A stretch of 37,440 nt of DNA. Source: Verrucomicrobiota bacterium. GTDB taxonomy: Bacteria > Verrucomicrobiota > Verrucomicrobiia > Opitutales > Opitutaceae. How positions within the stretch are numbered: the first letter of the stretch is position 1; every line of letters starts with the position of its first letter. The stretch lies in contig JAUWBF010000030.1 of assembly GCA_030601755.1 (NCBI GenBank), positions 1-37,440 of the forward strand. The letters are read 5' to 3'. The translations under genes were made by a program, and so were the position numbers. Of this stretch, positions 14,513 to 19,017 are shown one piece after another. Under the pieces are notes generated by a model. That model did no database searches, was not told where the DNA came from, and saw only the letters and a program-made list of their open reading frames with translations.

Positions 14513-15397
14513 TCAACGCCCCGCCGCCGGCAGCGCGTCGACCAGCGCCTTCAACGCCGGCGACGCCTTGCCGCGCTGCCACGCCACCATCAGCTCCCAC
14601 TTCGCGGCCGCATCCTGTAATGGCTTCATAACTACGCCCGGCGCCTGCATCGACGCCGCGTGCCCCGGCATCAACGCCACCGCGCCCTCCGTAACCACCA
14701 CCGACAGGCCGTGCGTCAGGCTGTCCGCGTCCTGCACGAAGCGCGCACGAAACCCCGCCCGCCGGCACAGCCGCGCGACCCACTGGTTGTGCCCCGGCAA
14801 ATCCTCGTCGGGCGCGCCCACGAACAACTCCCGCTTCAGATCGGCGAGCCGCACCGCCTTGCGCCCCGCCAACGCGTGGTCCTCCGGCAACACCGCCAGC
14901 ACCGGCAGCACCGCGAGCGTCTTCACATAAAACTCCGTCTTCAGCAACGCTCCCGCCTGCCCCAGCAACGCCACGTCGAGCTCGCCGGCCCGCAGCGCCG
15001 CGATCTGCTCGCCGGGTGACAGATCACGCATCTTCACCCTCACCTCCGGATGCGCCTTGCGCAGCGCCGCCAGCGCCGGGTTCAGGTAGTCCACCGCCGC
15101 CGACATCAGGTAGCCCACGCGCAGCTCCGCGCTCTGCCCGCGCGCCTGCCGCCGCACCCCGGCCAGCGCCGCGTCGAAGTCCGCCAGCACCGGCCGCATG
15201 CCCTCCAGCAACGCGTGCCCCGCCGCCGTCAACGCCACCCCGCCCGGCCCGCGCTCCAGCAACGCCCCGCCCGCCTCCTGCTCCAGCGCCTGCATCTGCC
15301 GCGTGAGCGTCGACTGCGACACCCGCAGCCGCTCCGCCGCCTTGTTCAGGCTGCCGCACTCCACGATGGCGAAAAACGAACGCAACAAGTCCAGGTT
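14513..15397 (-). CDS. LysR-family transcriptional regulator
   Basis: A 294-residue LysR-type regulator. The winged helix-turn-helix fills about 1-60 (NLDLLRSFFAIVECGSLNKA, then ERLRVSQSTLTRQMQALEQE), followed by the effector-binding domain from about 90 (AELRVGYLMSAAVDYLNPAL) with two periplasmic-binding-protein-like lobes. I prefer the GTG at 15397 because family members start right before '(M)(D/N)LDLLRSF'; an ATG at 15436 would add 13 atypical residues. It is divergent from a small membrane protein gene, its most likely target. The ligand cannot be predicted. Confidence 0.9.
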   Translation of the reverse strand, partial: NLDLLRSFFAIVECGSLNKAAERLRVSQSTLTRQMQALEQEAGGALLERGPGGVALTAAGHALLEGMRPVLADFDAALAGVRRQARGQSAELRVGYLMSAAVDYLNPALAALRKAHPEVRVKMRDLSPGEQIAALRAGELDVALLGQAGALLKTEFYVKTLAVLPVLAVLPEDHALAGRKAVRLADLKRELFVGAPDEDLPGHNQWVARLCRRAGFRARFVQDADSLTHGLSVVVTEGAVALMPGHAASMQAPGVVMKPLQDAAAKWELMVAWQRGKASPALKALVDALPAAGR

Positions 15398-15486
15398 CAC
15401 GCCGCGCAGCGTTATGCGCCGCACGCATGACGGCAAGCCGTTCCTCGCAGTATGCCCCGCCCCGTCCCGGTGATAATCTCTTCGGC

Positions 15487-15801
15487 ATGAACTCCACCGC
15501 TTCCACCAACAACACCGCCGCCGGCAACACCGCCCGCGCCCCGCGCGCCACCCACGCCCTCCGCCTCGCCGCCGCGGTCCTGTTCGCCGGCACCGTCGCC
15601 CTTTGGGCCGCCACCGGCGCGCACCGCGGCTGGACCCAGACCAGCAAGGTCGTCCTCCAGCAAGACGAGATCACCGGCATCGATTTCCCGGTCCACCAAA
15701 AAACCTTCGTCGCCGGCGTCGAGGTGCTCGCCGTCGGAGTGGCCTTCGCCGCCGCCCTCGTCACCGCCAGCCTGCTCACCAACCGCCGCCGCAAAGTGTA
15801 A
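15487..15801 (+). CDS. Small two-helix membrane protein
   Basis: A 104-residue protein I do not recognise. It has a short Asn/Thr/Ala-rich N-terminus, one hydrophobic helix at about 27-45 (LAAAVLFAGTVALWAATG), a polar middle that may face the periplasm (HRGWTQTSKVVLQQDEITGI), and a second helix at about 75-97 before a basic tail (TNRRRKV). The ATG at 15487 is used since the upstream open frame overlaps the LysR start. It is divergent from that regulator and ends at 15801, overlapping the left edge of the palindromic operator in front of yceI. Confidence 0.65.
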   Translation: MNSTASTNNTAAGNTARAPRATHALRLAAAVLFAGTVALWAATGAHRGWTQTSKVVLQQDEITGIDFPVHQKTFVAGVEVLAVGVAFAAALVTASLLTNRRRKV

Positions 15802-15814
15802 CCATAATGGTTAC
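15798..15814. promoter_or_regulatory. Palindromic operator upstream of yceI
   Basis: GTAACCATAATGGTTAC is a perfect 8-bp inverted repeat around one central base. It ends 44 bases before the YceI start. A related site, sharing TAACCA-N5-GTTA, lies at the same distance before wrbA (17610-17628). The geometry suits a dimeric winged-helix repressor such as an HxlR or MarR protein. It does not match the T-N11-A rule of LysR regulators. Confidence 0.65.
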
Positions 15815-15858
15815 AAAACCGCCTTTTCCCCACCTGAAACCAACCCGCCAACACCATC

Positions 15859-16488
15859 ATGAACACCGCCCGCATCACCCTAGCCTCCCTCGTCCTCGGC
15901 TCGATCGCCCTGGTCTCCGCCCACGCCGCCCCGCAGTCCTACGATTTCAAGGACCCCAAGGGCGTCAACAACGTCCAGTTCAAGCTCGACGCCCCCCTTG
16001 AATCCATCACCGGCACCGCCACCGGCGTCACCGGAACGATCACCTTCGACCCCGCCGCGCCCGCCGCCACCAGCGGACGCATCGAACTCGCGACCAAGAG
16101 TCTCACCGTCGGCAACCCGGTGATGCAGGAGCATCTCCACGGCGCCAACTGGCTCGATGTCGGCCAATACCCGGTCATCTCCTTCGAGGCCGTCTCCGCC
16201 GCCAACGTCCGCAGCCAAGGCTCCCAGATCCTTGCGGACGTAACCGGCCGGCTTACCGTGAAGGATGTCACCCAGGAGGTCACAGTGCCCGTCTCCTTCA
16301 CCCGCCTCGCCGACAAGCTCGGCGCGCGCCTCGGCGATGACAAAATCAAGGGTGACCTGCTCGTTGTCCGCGCCGCCTTCGTCATCAACCGCGGCGAGTT
16401 CAACATTCAGCCCGGCCAATACACCGACAAGGTCGCCGAGGACATCCACCTCTCGCTGGCCATCGCCGGCGCCTCCCCCCGCGAATAA
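15859..16488 (+). CDS. YceI-family periplasmic lipid/isoprenoid-binding protein
   Basis: A 209-residue exported lipocalin-like protein. A signal peptide ends near AHA-AP (residue 24). The YceI fold shows in the sequence: a first strand SYDFKDPKGVNNVQFKLDAP, TGTITFDPAAPAATSGRIEL, the diagnostic stretch LHGANWLDVGQYPVISFEA, then TGRLTVKDVTQEVTVPVSF, which matches the family's 'G.LTLHGVT..V.L'. YceI proteins bind long isoprenoid chains such as polyprenyl quinone precursors. The gene stands first in a block with a ring-cleaving dioxygenase, WrbA and an MhqD-like hydrolase. It has its own operator at 15798. Confidence 0.92.
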   Translation: MNTARITLASLVLGSIALVSAHAAPQSYDFKDPKGVNNVQFKLDAPLESITGTATGVTGTITFDPAAPAATSGRIELATKSLTVGNPVMQEHLHGANWLDVGQYPVISFEAVSAANVRSQGSQILADVTGRLTVKDVTQEVTVPVSFTRLADKLGARLGDDKIKGDLLVVRAAFVINRGEFNIQPGQYTDKVAEDIHLSLAIAGASPRE

Positions 16489-16502
16489 TCTGAGCCAATC
16501 CT

Positions 16503-16618
16503 TGGCCACAGAGTTCACAGAGCCCGGACACAGAGAACACAGAGTCGATCCACCCAAAGATACTTCATCACCCTGCCCTCCGTGACCTCTGTGTCCGAGC
16601 TCTGTGTCCTCTGTGGCC
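16503..16618. repeat. Inverted pair of CCACAGAG-type dispersed repeats
   Basis: The left arm (16503-16544) is built of CACAGAG units (TGGCCACAGAGTTCACAGAG, then a second half with GGACACAGAG and AACACAGAG). The right arm (16586-16618) is its approximate reverse complement, with CTCTGTGTCC and CTCTGTGGCC. Repeats of this kind are scattered through many Verrucomicrobiota and Acidobacteria genomes. It separates yceI from the dioxygenase gene; the frame open through it is not coding. Confidence 0.7.
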
Positions 16619-16653
16619 CACCTCCAAAATCCTCCACCTCTCCCTTCACTGTC

Positions 16654-17607
16654 ATGAACACCGCAGTCACCACCACGCCCACCGGCATCCACCACATCAC
16701 CGCCATCGCCGGCGACCCGCAGGTCAACGTCGACTTCTACACCCGCGTGCTCGGCCTGCGCCTCGTGAAAAAAACCGTCAACTTCGACGACCCCACCGCC
16801 TATCACCTCTACTACGGCGACGCCGCCGGCTCGCCCGGCAGCATCGTCACTTTCTTCTACTGGCCCGGCCTCGAGGCCAAGGGCCGCGTAGGCTCCGGCC
16901 AGAACACCGCCATCGTATTCTCCGCCCCCGCCGGCTCGCTCGACTTCTGGCAAAACCATCTCAGCGCCCACGGCGTCGTTTCCCATCGCCGCGAACGCTT
17001 CGGCGAAACCGTCGTCGCCTTCGCCGACCCCGACGGCATCCCGATCGAGATCGTCGCCGTGGCCGAAGACAACCGCGCCGGCTGGACCACCGCCGACATC
17101 TCCGCGGCGCAAGCCCTGCGCGGCCTGCACACCGCCGAGATCACCGTGCGCTCCGCCGCCAAGACCGAGGCCCTCGTCACCGGCGTCATGGGATATCAAC
17201 TACAACGCCGCGACGGCGCCCGCGCCCGTTTCGAGGCCGCCGGCGGCGGCGGCTCCGGCCATTACATCGACATCATCGCCGATCCCTCCGCCCGCCCCGG
17301 TGTCGGCGGCGCCGGCACCATCCACCACATCGCCTGGAGCGTGCCCGACGACGAGACCGAGCTGTCCATGCAGAGCGCCCTCGCCGCCGCCGGCCACCTC
17401 GTCTCCGACGTGCGCGACCGCAACTACTTCCAATCGATCTACTATCGCGAGCCCGGCGGCGTGCTCTTCGAGATCGCCACCGCCAACCCCGGCTTCGCCA
17501 TCGACGAGGCCCCCGAGTCGCTCGGCACCGCCCTCAAGCTCCCCGCCCAGTTCGAGCGCGCCCGCTCCCAAATCGAATCCCTCCTCCCGCCCCTCGGGGC
17601 CAAATAA
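16654..17607 (+). CDS. Ring-cleaving dioxygenase, MhqO/MhqA-like VOC protein
   Basis: A 317-residue protein of two tandem vicinal-oxygen-chelate halves. The first begins GIHHITAIAGDPQVNVDFYT, where His14 is the expected metal ligand. The second half begins at about 150 (GLHTAEITV) and contains the further ligands in TIHHIAWSV and in YREPGGVLFEIAT. This arrangement is that of Bacillus MhqO/MhqA and LinE-like enzymes, which open hydroquinone-type rings using Fe(II) or Mn(II). In Bacillus subtilis such genes are induced by methylhydroquinone and catechol. It sits between yceI and wrbA and before an MhqD-like hydrolase, the same functional set. The ATG at 16654 avoids the repeat upstream. Confidence 0.9.
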   Translation: MNTAVTTTPTGIHHITAIAGDPQVNVDFYTRVLGLRLVKKTVNFDDPTAYHLYYGDAAGSPGSIVTFFYWPGLEAKGRVGSGQNTAIVFSAPAGSLDFWQNHLSAHGVVSHRRERFGETVVAFADPDGIPIEIVAVAEDNRAGWTTADISAAQALRGLHTAEITVRSAAKTEALVTGVMGYQLQRRDGARARFEAAGGGGSGHYIDIIADPSARPGVGGAGTIHHIAWSVPDDETELSMQSALAAAGHLVSDVRDRNYFQSIYYREPGGVLFEIATANPGFAIDEAPESLGTALKLPAQFERARSQIESLLPPLGAK

Positions 17608-17609
17608 AT

Positions 17610-17628
17610 ACTAACCAGCTACGTTAGT
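17610..17628. promoter_or_regulatory. Palindromic operator upstream of wrbA
   Basis: ACTAAC-CAGCTAC-GTTAGT, 6-bp arms with a 7-base spacer. Its core TAACCA-N5-GTTA is shared with the site at 15798, and it ends 44 bases before the wrbA start, the same as that site before yceI. It begins two bases after the dioxygenase stop, so wrbA probably has its own promoter here. Confidence 0.62.
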
Positions 17629-17672
17629 CTTTTCCCGAACACCCGTCACATTCACCACCGAAAACCACCACC

Positions 17673-18293
17673 ATGAGCACCAAGATCAAAGTCATCTTCC
17701 ACAGCCTTTACGGGCACACCCATCAACTCGCCGAGGCCATCGCCGAGGGCGCGCGTTCCGTGCCCGGCGTCGAGGCCGAGGTCCTGCAAGTCGCCGAGAC
17801 GCTGCCCGACGAGGTTCTCGCCAAGATGGGCGCGACCGAGGCGAAAAAAACCTTCGCCCACATCCCCGTCGCCAAGGCCTCCGACCTCACCGACGCCGAC
17901 GGCCTCATCTTCGGCAGCGGCACGCGCTTTGGCAGCGCCTCGGCGCAGTTGCAGGCCTTCTTCGATACCACCGGCGGCCTCTGGGCCAAGGGCGCGCTCG
18001 TCGGCAAGGCCGGCGGCCTGTTCGTCTCCACCGCCACCCAGCACGGCGGCCAGGAAAGCACGCTGCTCGGCATGCAGACCTTCCTGCTCCACCACGGCAT
18101 GGTCGTGGTCGGCGTGCCCTACGCCGCGCCCGAACTCTCGCACCTCGCCGACATCACCGGTGGCTCGCCCTACGGCTCCGGCGTCATCGCCGGCACCGAC
18201 GGCAGCCGCAAGCCCTCCGACAACGAACTCGCCATCGCCCGCTACCAAGGCAAACACACCGCCGAAATCGCCGCCAAGCTGGCGGCGAGGTAA
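17673..18293 (+). CDS. wrbA: NAD(P)H:quinone oxidoreductase, WrbA type
   Basis: A 206-residue flavodoxin-like enzyme that reduces quinones by two electrons to hydroquinones, avoiding semiquinone radicals. The FMN phosphate loop is at about 10-17 (HSLYGHTHQ; family form 'S.YGH...'). Other WrbA landmarks are GSGTRFGSASAQLQAFFDTT, with GGLWAKGALVGKAGGLFVST, and the loop TATQHGGQESTLL. The end NELAIARYQGKHTAEIA is also typical. Length fits the tetrameric WrbA family. The product, hydroquinone, is a plausible substrate for the dioxygenase encoded just upstream. Confidence 0.94.
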   Translation: MSTKIKVIFHSLYGHTHQLAEAIAEGARSVPGVEAEVLQVAETLPDEVLAKMGATEAKKTFAHIPVAKASDLTDADGLIFGSGTRFGSASAQLQAFFDTTGGLWAKGALVGKAGGLFVSTATQHGGQESTLLGMQTFLLHHGMVVVGVPYAAPELSHLADITGGSPYGSGVIAGTDGSRKPSDNELAIARYQGKHTAEIAAKLAAR

Positions 18294-18303
18294 ACGCGAG
18301 GAA

Positions 18304-18369
18304 GACGGACATTCCTGTCCGTCGGTTTGTTCGCAATCATCACCACAACGGCGGACAGGAATGTCCGCC
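18304..18369. repeat. Inverted hairpin pair, GGCGGACA type
   Basis: GACGGACATTCCTGTCCGTC (18304-18323) and GGCGGACAGGAATGTCCGCC (18350-18369) are each perfect 8-bp hairpins with 4-base loops. They are inverted copies of one another, 26 bases apart. There is no GTAG foot, unlike the other elements. It separates wrbA from the hydrolase gene. Confidence 0.75.
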
Positions 18370-18384
18370 CTCCATTTTTCAGTC

Positions 18385-19017
18385 ATGAATCTCCACGCCC
18401 CCGCCAACTCCATCCGCCTTGGCCCCGCGCTGAACCAAGCCCGCGGGGTCGTCATCCTCATCCATGGCCGCGGCTCCTCGGCCGAGGACATCCTCGGCCT
18501 CGCCGATGTCTTTGGCCGTGACGACCTCGCCTTCATAGCGCCGCAGGCCGCCGACCACACCTGGTATCCACAGCGTTTCCTCGCGCCGCTCGCGCACAAC
18601 GAACCGGCGCTGTCCTCCGCGCTCGCCACCATCGACGCGCTCGTCGGGGAAGCGCTCGCCGCCGGCGTGCCGGCCGAACGCATCGCCCTCGCCGGCTTTT
18701 CTCAGGGCGCCTGCCTCGCTCTCGAATACGCCGCGCGCAACCCGCGCCGCTACGCCTTCGTCGCGGCGCTGAGCGGAGCGTTGATCGGCCCGACCGACAC
18801 CCCGCGCGACTGCGGCGACCTCGAACGCACGCCGGTGTTGATCGGCTGCGCCGAGCATGACGCCCACATCCCGCTCGAACACGTCGAGCACAGCGCCGCC
18901 GCGCTCTCCGCGCTCAACGCCGACGTCACGAAACAGATCTTCCCCGGCTCGGCCCATACCGTGTTTCCCGCCGAGGTCGAGTGGTTGCGCAAACAGGCCG
19001 CGGTCGCCGCCGGCTGA
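18385..19017 (+). CDS. Alpha/beta-hydrolase, MhqD-like carboxylesterase/phospholipase
   Basis: A 210-residue serine hydrolase of the carboxylesterase/phospholipase family. The oxyanion strand is VVILIHGRGSSAED. The catalytic triad is Ser106 in AGFSQGACLA, Asp159 in GCAEHDAHIP and His191 in PGSAHTVFP. No signal peptide is seen, so it acts in the cytoplasm. Bacillus MhqD, of the same size and family, is co-induced with MhqO by hydroquinones. Its position after the dioxygenase and wrbA suggests a role in the same detoxification, perhaps hydrolysing ring-opened products. That specific step is inferred from context only. Confidence 0.87.
   Translation: MNLHAPANSIRLGPALNQARGVVILIHGRGSSAEDILGLADVFGRDDLAFIAPQAADHTWYPQRFLAPLAHNEPALSSALATIDALVGEALAAGVPAERIALAGFSQGACLALEYAARNPRRYAFVAALSGALIGPTDTPRDCGDLERTPVLIGCAEHDAHIPLEHVEHSAAALSALNADVTKQIFPGSAHTVFPAEVEWLRKQAAVAAG

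Follow-up and report, generated by a model that had tools for sequence, protein, structure and literature searches.

A probable LysR-type divergon for quinone or aromatic detoxification in Opitutaceae, decorated with REP-like hairpins

The mhqNOPD and mhqRED clusters of Bacillus and Staphylococcus, which belong to the regulon of the MarR-type regulator MhqR, place an MhqO-like dioxygenase near a carboxylesterase-family hydrolase and a quinone reductase. Divergons of the BenM, CatM and CbnR group combine a divergent LysR gene with a T-N11-A dyad that lies upstream of the target genes. Repetitive extragenic palindromes (REPs/REPINs) are described in an excerpt of PMC3733652 as GTAG- and CGTC-tagged palindromes; according to the same excerpt, those of Opitutus terrae and others are mostly intergenic with dimers mostly 20-100 bp apart, REPs give stop codons to genes and sometimes lie inside genes, and O. 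terrae is REP-rich. Here we analysed a stretch of 37,440 nucleotides (hereafter the window; contig JAUWBF010000030.1 of assembly GCA_030601755.1, C39 in our numbering) within the 3.55-Mb draft genome, in 152 contigs, of a Verrucomicrobiota bacterium of the family Opitutaceae. The window carries a gene block that is probably a LysR-type divergon for quinone or aromatic detoxification, decorated with untagged REP-like hairpins, and the TAACCA-N5-GTTA palindromes lying before two of its genes are probably not its operators. The features concerned are the following.

14513-15400, minus strand: LysR-type regulator gene, divergent from the block (PF00126 E 1e-19, PF03466 E 2e-36)
15414-15452, plus strand: putative LysR operator, conserved in the LysR/orf104 divergent promoter
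15487-15801, plus strand: orf104, a small protein, membrane-type by eye, adjoining yceI
15797-15815, no strand assigned: family A palindrome TGTAACCATAATGGTTACA, a dispersed repeat holding the 15799 core
15859-16488, plus strand: yceI (PF04264 E 1e-26; solved relatives 7bwl and 1y0g)
16654-17607, plus strand: MhqO/PcpA-like ring-cleaving dioxygenase of the VOC family (3oaj, MhqO, E 8e-83; 4huz E 3e-54)
17602-17636, plus strand: family B hairpin AAATAAATACTAACCAGCTACGTTAGTCTTTTCCC, REP-like, at the dioxygenase 3' end and holding the 17612 core
17673-18293, plus strand: wrbA, NAD(P)H:quinone oxidoreductase type IV (TIGR01755 265.5 bits against a cut-off of 132.5; 4la4 E 3e-72)
18361 or 18385 to 19017, plus strand: MhqD-like alpha/beta hydrolase of the carboxylesterase family (PF02230 E 6e-26; 4h0c E 6e-50)

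An earlier note on this DNA had read YceI, an MhqO-like dioxygenase, WrbA and an MhqD-like hydrolase in one direction, and Pfam, equivalog and solved-structure matches bore these identities out. The solved dioxygenase relative 4huz is a 2,6-dichloro-p-hydroquinone 1,2-dioxygenase, and YceI proteins are known as isoprenoid binders. The hydrolase reached 24.5 bits against the MhqD model, far under its cut-off of 325 bits, so that it merits the label MhqD-like but not MhqD, and orf104 matched no Pfam or NCBIfam family. The note had placed the regulator outside the window, a view that overlooks the divergent LysR gene adjoining the block; the solved structures nearest its product are 7w06, 1ixc (which we take to be CbnR) and BenM, with CatM also among the best.

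The complete arrangement, LysR on the minus strand followed by orf104-yceI-dioxygenase-wrbA-mhqD, was present in four genomes (this one, G053, G004 and a Rariglobus metagenome-assembled genome, MAG). G064 carried LysR-orf104-yceI-dioxygenase within the stretch read, G005 had LysR adjoining the dioxygenase with mhqD present, and Opitutaceae MAG-4 had LysR/dioxygenase-wrbA-mhqD with orf104-yceI about 3 kb away, LysR thus adjoining the block in this genome and six relatives. In MAG-4 (L239:1-7355) the orf104-yceI pair is inverted, and the promoter dyad described below still lies between LysR and the dioxygenase. Homologues of orf104 occurred in G053, G004, G064, the Rariglobus MAG and Opitutaceae MAG-4, beside yceI in all five as in this genome; named relatives carrying the block include Rariglobus and other Opitutaceae MAGs. 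Among the 85 dioxygenase loci, compared by tblastn at E 1e-4 with a minimum of 40 aligned residues, 57 had a hydrolase match, some at just 27-29% identity; LysR occurred at 8 (the six relatives above and two weak matches), yceI at 7 (five among the six LysR-bearing relatives, two weak), wrbA at 6 (five of Opitutaceae type, the sixth at 37%) and orf104 at 5. The block is a real, conserved gene set of quinone/aromatic-detoxification type. Our literature search found no paper joining YceI, WrbA, LysR, quinone and dioxygenase, and likewise none for YceI, pirin, LysR and WrbA.

The promoter between LysR and orf104 holds a dyad with ATGCG at 15414-15418 and CGCAT at 15424-15428 (T15415-N11-A15427), accompanied by CGGCAAGCCG at 15431-15440 and CGCAGTA at 15446-15452, upstream of the orf104 ATG at 15487; the usual position of LysR boxes served as background in reading it. 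The order TATGCG-N5-CGCAT, then (G/T)AC(G/T)GCAAGCC, then CGCAGT recurred in all seven promoter regions next to LysR (this genome and the six relatives), with CGGCAAGCCG exact in five and carrying one change in two, and CGCAGT in 7/7. Among 432 loci, the exact 26-letter form of the operator was confined to this genome, G053, G004, G064 and the Rariglobus MAG. The locus shows two marks of a LysR divergon, a LysR gene that adjoins its target unit in divergent orientation (this genome and six relatives) and, in 7/7, a conserved T-N11-A dyad ahead of that unit; the LysR gene is probably the regulator of the block. The stretch TGATAATCT at 15471-15479 could be an extended -10 element, judged by eye. 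The dioxygenase unit is likewise preceded by such a dyad in two more genomes, G042 (ATGCG-N5-CGCAT, its right flank weaker) and G080; the latter comes from another family of the order and has a small gene of no assigned family between the dyad and the dioxygenase unit (L168/L240).

We propose that the LysR protein probably binds the T-N11-A dyad centred near 15421 together with the adjoining stretch, and that it would switch on orf104-yceI-dioxygenase-wrbA-mhqD as one co-directional operon, the inducing signal presumably being an aromatic or quinone-type compound. Within the block, WrbA would reduce quinones to hydroquinones, the MhqO-like enzyme would open a hydroquinone or catechol ring, the hydrolase would split a product, and YceI and orf104 may act at the envelope. 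The block resembles mhqNOPD/mhqRED in having an MhqO-like dioxygenase near a carboxylesterase-family hydrolase, as at the majority of loci above, plus a quinone reductase; it differs in adding WrbA, YceI and orf104 and in adjoining a divergent LysR gene instead of a MarR-type mhqR. LysR is the adjacent regulator, and no MarR/HxlR regulator with its operator was found at the cluster. In the excerpted text of PMC6798810 the operator of MhqR is a 9-9 bp repeat, unlike the putative T-N11-A dyad of the block. The divergent LysR gene and upstream dyad are shared with the BenM/CatM/CbnR group, from which the locus departs in gene content and in that its LysR regulation is putative.

The earlier note had also seen one core, TAACCA-N5-GTTA, at 15799 and 17612. 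The shared core stood, being exact at both places, with 45 bases left to the yceI ATG and 46 to that of wrbA, but the two copies belong to different repeat families. A scan allowing one mismatch gave 3 strand-matches, the palindromic site being counted twice, against a shuffle mean of 0.16, with 3 reached in 1/100 shuffles. The 15799 palindrome is overlapped by the TAA stop of orf104 and folds as RNA at -9.8, better than all 200 shuffles; the 17612 core begins 4 bp past the dioxygenase stop and folds weakly (-3.8 kcal/mol, 11/200 shuffles as good). In relatives, the 15799 palindrome was absent from the orf104-yceI spacer in 4/4 (G053, G004, G064 and the Rariglobus MAG). In the dioxygenase-wrbA spacer the Rariglobus MAG has AAAGTAACCCAATAGGTTACTTT and G053 has GTAACCAAATAAGGTTAC, each spanning the dioxygenase stop codon, and this spacer lacks a TAAC hairpin in G004, Opitutaceae MAG-4 and G042, so that the conservation of both sites that the note looked to in related Opitutaceae came down to 0/4 before yceI and, before wrbA, to the position of a differently spelled TAACC hairpin in 2/5. 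The core common to the two sites is an overlap of two repeat families and not one operator.

The genome-wide motif search that the note had suggested gave 62 strand-matches against 2 for the reversed control; nine places match on both strands, which leaves 53 places, split by their flanks into family A (9) and family B (44). Family A mostly takes the form caaagTAACCATWATGGTTActttg, with tgTAACCATWATGGTTAca as a further form, and a typical family B copy reads ggaaaaagacTAACCAGMTACGTTAgtctttttcc, with a conserved, asymmetric 7-base loop, an A-rich 5' arm and a T-rich 3' arm. The wider pattern TAAC-N7-GTTA occurred at 86 places against 10 for its control and revealed a third, related family C (aaagagTAACCYAWTRGGTTActcttt, 32 places), with one further place outside A, B and C. 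Gene context was read over 383 kb of this genome surrounding the sites with our own codon-usage caller, not a published gene finder, which recovered the genes of the block. All 43 placeable family B copies were intergenic (8 convergent, 27 tandem, 8 divergent; one more lay at a contig edge), as were 26/32 of family C and 2/9 of family A, 7/9 of the latter lying inside genes; random positions in the same sequence fell inside genes in 82% of cases. The genes holding family A copies are mutually unrelated (CusA-like, RsmE, a response regulator and a sugar kinase, named by eye). Near the 85 sites of the three families, 51 genes start within 300 bp, all of which were Pfam-scanned. They included MutS, DNA ligase, RecQ, TrpA, GrpE, MoaD/MoaE, adenylosuccinate lyase, NAD synthase and Maf, some redox enzymes (SelR, an FMN_red protein, a small VOC protein, two FAD oxidoreductases and a short-chain dehydrogenase) and several genes without a family. 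Such unrelated neighbours do not make a coherent quinone regulon, and HxlR/MarR genes numbered 0 among the 51 by Pfam, a whole-genome list of such genes not having been made.

These repeats have the build of hairpins. The arms of family B pair beyond the core (of the 528 cells formed by 12 outer positions, 370 are Watson-Crick, against an average of 341 and a peak of 368 in 1000 shuffles that ignore the relatedness of copies), and its strongest arm column was paired in 33/44 copies against 21.3, with A-T and T-A about equal. Arm pairing stayed within the shuffle maxima for family C (242/384, maximum 256), for family A in this genome (56/108, maximum 59) and for the family A copies of G097 (139/216, maximum 145). 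Pairs within 500 bp numbered 14 for B and 8 for C, the C pairs being spaced 45-68 bp apart. The word TTTCAGAGG was found between paired hairpins in 6/6 of its occurrences in the 383 kb (five C pairs and one B pair; L105:2856, L111:2761, L118:4758, L138:3479, L122:5280 and L121:3424), and a composite element may have this word at its core. A conserved RNA between paired B hairpins was considered and set aside, as the spacers look unrelated apart from a TTTCAGAGG-like word in a few. A known structured RNA was likewise rejected: an Rfam search at gathering thresholds over 8 sources (96,946 bases; the window and seven hairpin loci) returned one tRNA only.

Thirteen copies lie in genes, ten of them encoding SNxxGY (SNHNGY five times, SNPIGY twice, and SNPLGY, SNLLGY and SNLMGY) and three V-T-x-x-V-T; because stop codons within the repeats close most reading frames, the SNxxGY preference is partly forced. 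In-frame copies were seen at L122:5249-5308, L107:4149, L114:2500, L137:3176, L031:2792 and L124:3142, a whole C pair being inside one L122 gene. In RsmE, matched in 48 genomes of which 20 supplied loci (this one among them), the repeat peptide falls in a linker of variable length; SNHNGYF was in none of 19 homologues, and at least 4 gaps occurred there in 2/19. We set aside the reading of in-gene copies as clean insertions; insertion into this variable linker is plausible but unproven.

The distribution of the repeats across genomes is patchy. Two of the 141 genomes searched had the 17-base A core, this one (8) and G097 (42); the remaining 139, among them the two genus-mates of G097 that were searched (G020 and G123), had none. 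All 18 G097 copies examined, out of 42, were intergenic. Within G097, L191:3304-3590 is a 90-bp tandem array with one GTAACCATNATGGTTAC hairpin per unit (four exact, the fifth with one change). The strict B pattern was found in 0/37 other genomes of the family and order. The palindrome GTAAC-N7-GTTAC clearly exceeded its control in a set of genomes, this one (42/0), G053 (48/2), G055 (38/1), G052 (36/2), G022 (24/4), G003 (22/1), G049 (15/4), G064 (13/1) and G040 (9/0), all of the same family, and showed a clear excess in 0/34 genomes from other families of the order. Within G053, over 1.6 Mb, N7 was the only spacing of TAAC-Nx-GTTA to top its control word (12 against 7), and 8 of these 12 matches were the hairpin ccagtttgTAACTTAWTAAGTTAcaaactgg or near variants. 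Eight hairpin spacers of this genome had a counterpart in the 1.6 Mb of G053 and its block locus, and in this small sample a TAAC hairpin stood at the orthologous spacer in 3/8: NAD synthase/Maf and the spacer before a MoaD-like gene (both with arms above 8) and dioxygenase-wrbA (arms 6). The other five had no TAAC hairpin, two of those spacers being nearly gone in G053, and 1/22 control spacers held any hairpin with arms of at least 8. All three shared-position hairpins differ in sequence from the copy in this genome.

In our main reading the 15799 and 17612 copies each belong to a dispersed family of short REP-like hairpins with a TAAC-N7-GTTA core; most of these hairpins are intergenic (B, C) or intragenic (A in this genome), they often come in pairs and they sometimes provide a stop codon. 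One account of the hairpins, to which we give somewhat better than even odds, is that they are non-autonomous, mobile REP/REPIN-like elements, with positions shared between genera marking old insertions whose sequence was later overwritten. The patchy spread, with 42 copies of the A 17-mer in G097 and none in two searched genus-mates, and the C pairs of similar spacing that share TTTCAGAGG speak for it. So does the resemblance to REPs, O. terrae included in the excerpt of PMC3733652: short hairpins, mostly intergenic in B and C, pairs tens of bases apart, genome-specific families, and stop codons supplied by the hairpins, some of which lie in frame inside proteins. Against it, no conserved GTAG or CGTC tag was seen by eye in the flanks, and no clean insertion was proven. 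The hairpins also differ from REPs in their constant TAAC-N7-GTTA core, and family A is mostly intragenic here. A classical REP driven by a REP-associated tyrosine transposase was rejected: among 38 Y1_Tnp matches from this genome, G097, G020, G052 and G003, the 33 with a locus (5/38 had none) showed no TAAC-N3-9-GTTA within 1.5 kb on either side.

A more tentative idea, which we hold as doubtful, is an Opitutaceae superfamily of TAAC-N7-GTTA hairpins whose loops and arms vary by genome as dialects, some hairpins keeping their gene ends or spacers. The loops observed were CATWATG in this genome and G097, CYAWTRG, CTAWTAG, TTAWTAA in G053, a few GTAWTAC copies elsewhere and CAGMTAC in this genome; the dialects of DNA uptake sequences offer a comparison.

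Unlikely, in our judgement, is that the hairpins are transcription terminators or mRNA 3'-end stabilisers of genome-specific sequence, in which case 17612 would cut read-through from the dioxygenase gene into wrbA. Compared with an intrinsic terminator, a GC-rich stem with a T-run behind it at gene 3' ends, family B has A/T runs and an AT-rich stem. In favour, its arms are A-rich 5' and T-rich 3', some copies fold strongly (L127 at -21.8 kcal/mol, z -6.4), a TAACC hairpin marks the dioxygenase 3' end in G053 and the Rariglobus MAG as well, and orthologous G053 spacers held TAAC hairpins more often than control spacers (3/8, or 2/8 counting arms of at least 8, against 1/22 with any hairpin of that arm length). 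Yet 8/43 B copies sit in divergent spacers, and orientation to tandem genes showed no strand bias (13 same, 14 opposite), a balance on which we also rejected a strand-specific role in mRNA; the 17612 copy is weak as RNA, the dioxygenase 3' end has no hairpin in G004, MAG-4 and G042, separate GC-rich terminator-like hairpins with T-runs exist, and the G097 and G053 families have short or no T-runs by eye. Very improbable is the earlier proposal of an HxlR- or MarR-like repressor, encoded elsewhere, that binds TAACCA-N5-GTTA before yceI and wrbA to coordinate a quinone regulon: the matching distances to the two start codons, the N7 spacing singled out in G053 and the binding of 16-20 bp palindromes by MarR-family regulators (as excerpted in PMC6798810) favour it, but it founders on 53 places in two families, the intragenic palindromic copies, the asymmetric loop and outer pairing of family B, the unrelated neighbours with no HxlR/MarR gene among the 51, the absence of the 15799 site in 4/4 relatives and the different operator of MhqR.

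For the LysR-type divergon decorated with untagged REP-like hairpins, the case is made by protein families, synteny, conserved promoter sequence, and the dispersal and context of the repeats. Several observations weigh against it. A sigma-70 consensus scan found no promoter, the -10 having been assigned by eye; the B arm test leaves aside how the copies are related; the Y1 transposase matches examined have no TAAC hairpin nearby; and the hairpins recurring at orthologous places (3/8) mean that some copies, 17612 perhaps included, may have a local role. In addition, no relative of the window's LysR was found in the G042 (L237) and G080 stretches examined, despite the dyad; the two are thus not paired everywhere, which lowered our confidence in this explanation to a probability of about 0.82.

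Two further repeats lie within the block. Between yceI and the dioxygenase gene, 16504-16618 is a long inverted CACAGAG-type repeat with 41-nt arms that are 85% complementary; CACAGAGNNCACAGAG has 4 matches in the 383 kb, three of them within 16504-16618. Between wrbA and mhqD, 18300-18373 contains an inverted pair around GGACAGGAATGTCC, a 14-mer with 9 matches in the 383 kb, and this pair is probably another dispersed repeat.

At the level of the block, two look-alike palindromes once taken for one operator are replaced by a LysR-type dyad that is conserved across genera beside a LysR gene in the window, and the detoxification block emerges as a stable set that includes yceI and a small protein of no assigned family, orf104. 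Since untagged REP-like hairpins are common in these genomes, palindromes before start codons need a genome-wide check. What goes beyond the routine is that the hairpin sequence differs from genome to genome although some positions are kept. If the dialects are true, a co-evolving trans-acting factor would have to be driving concerted change across the whole genome, with no known transposase link, and they would offer a tractable case of concerted evolution in dispersed hairpins.

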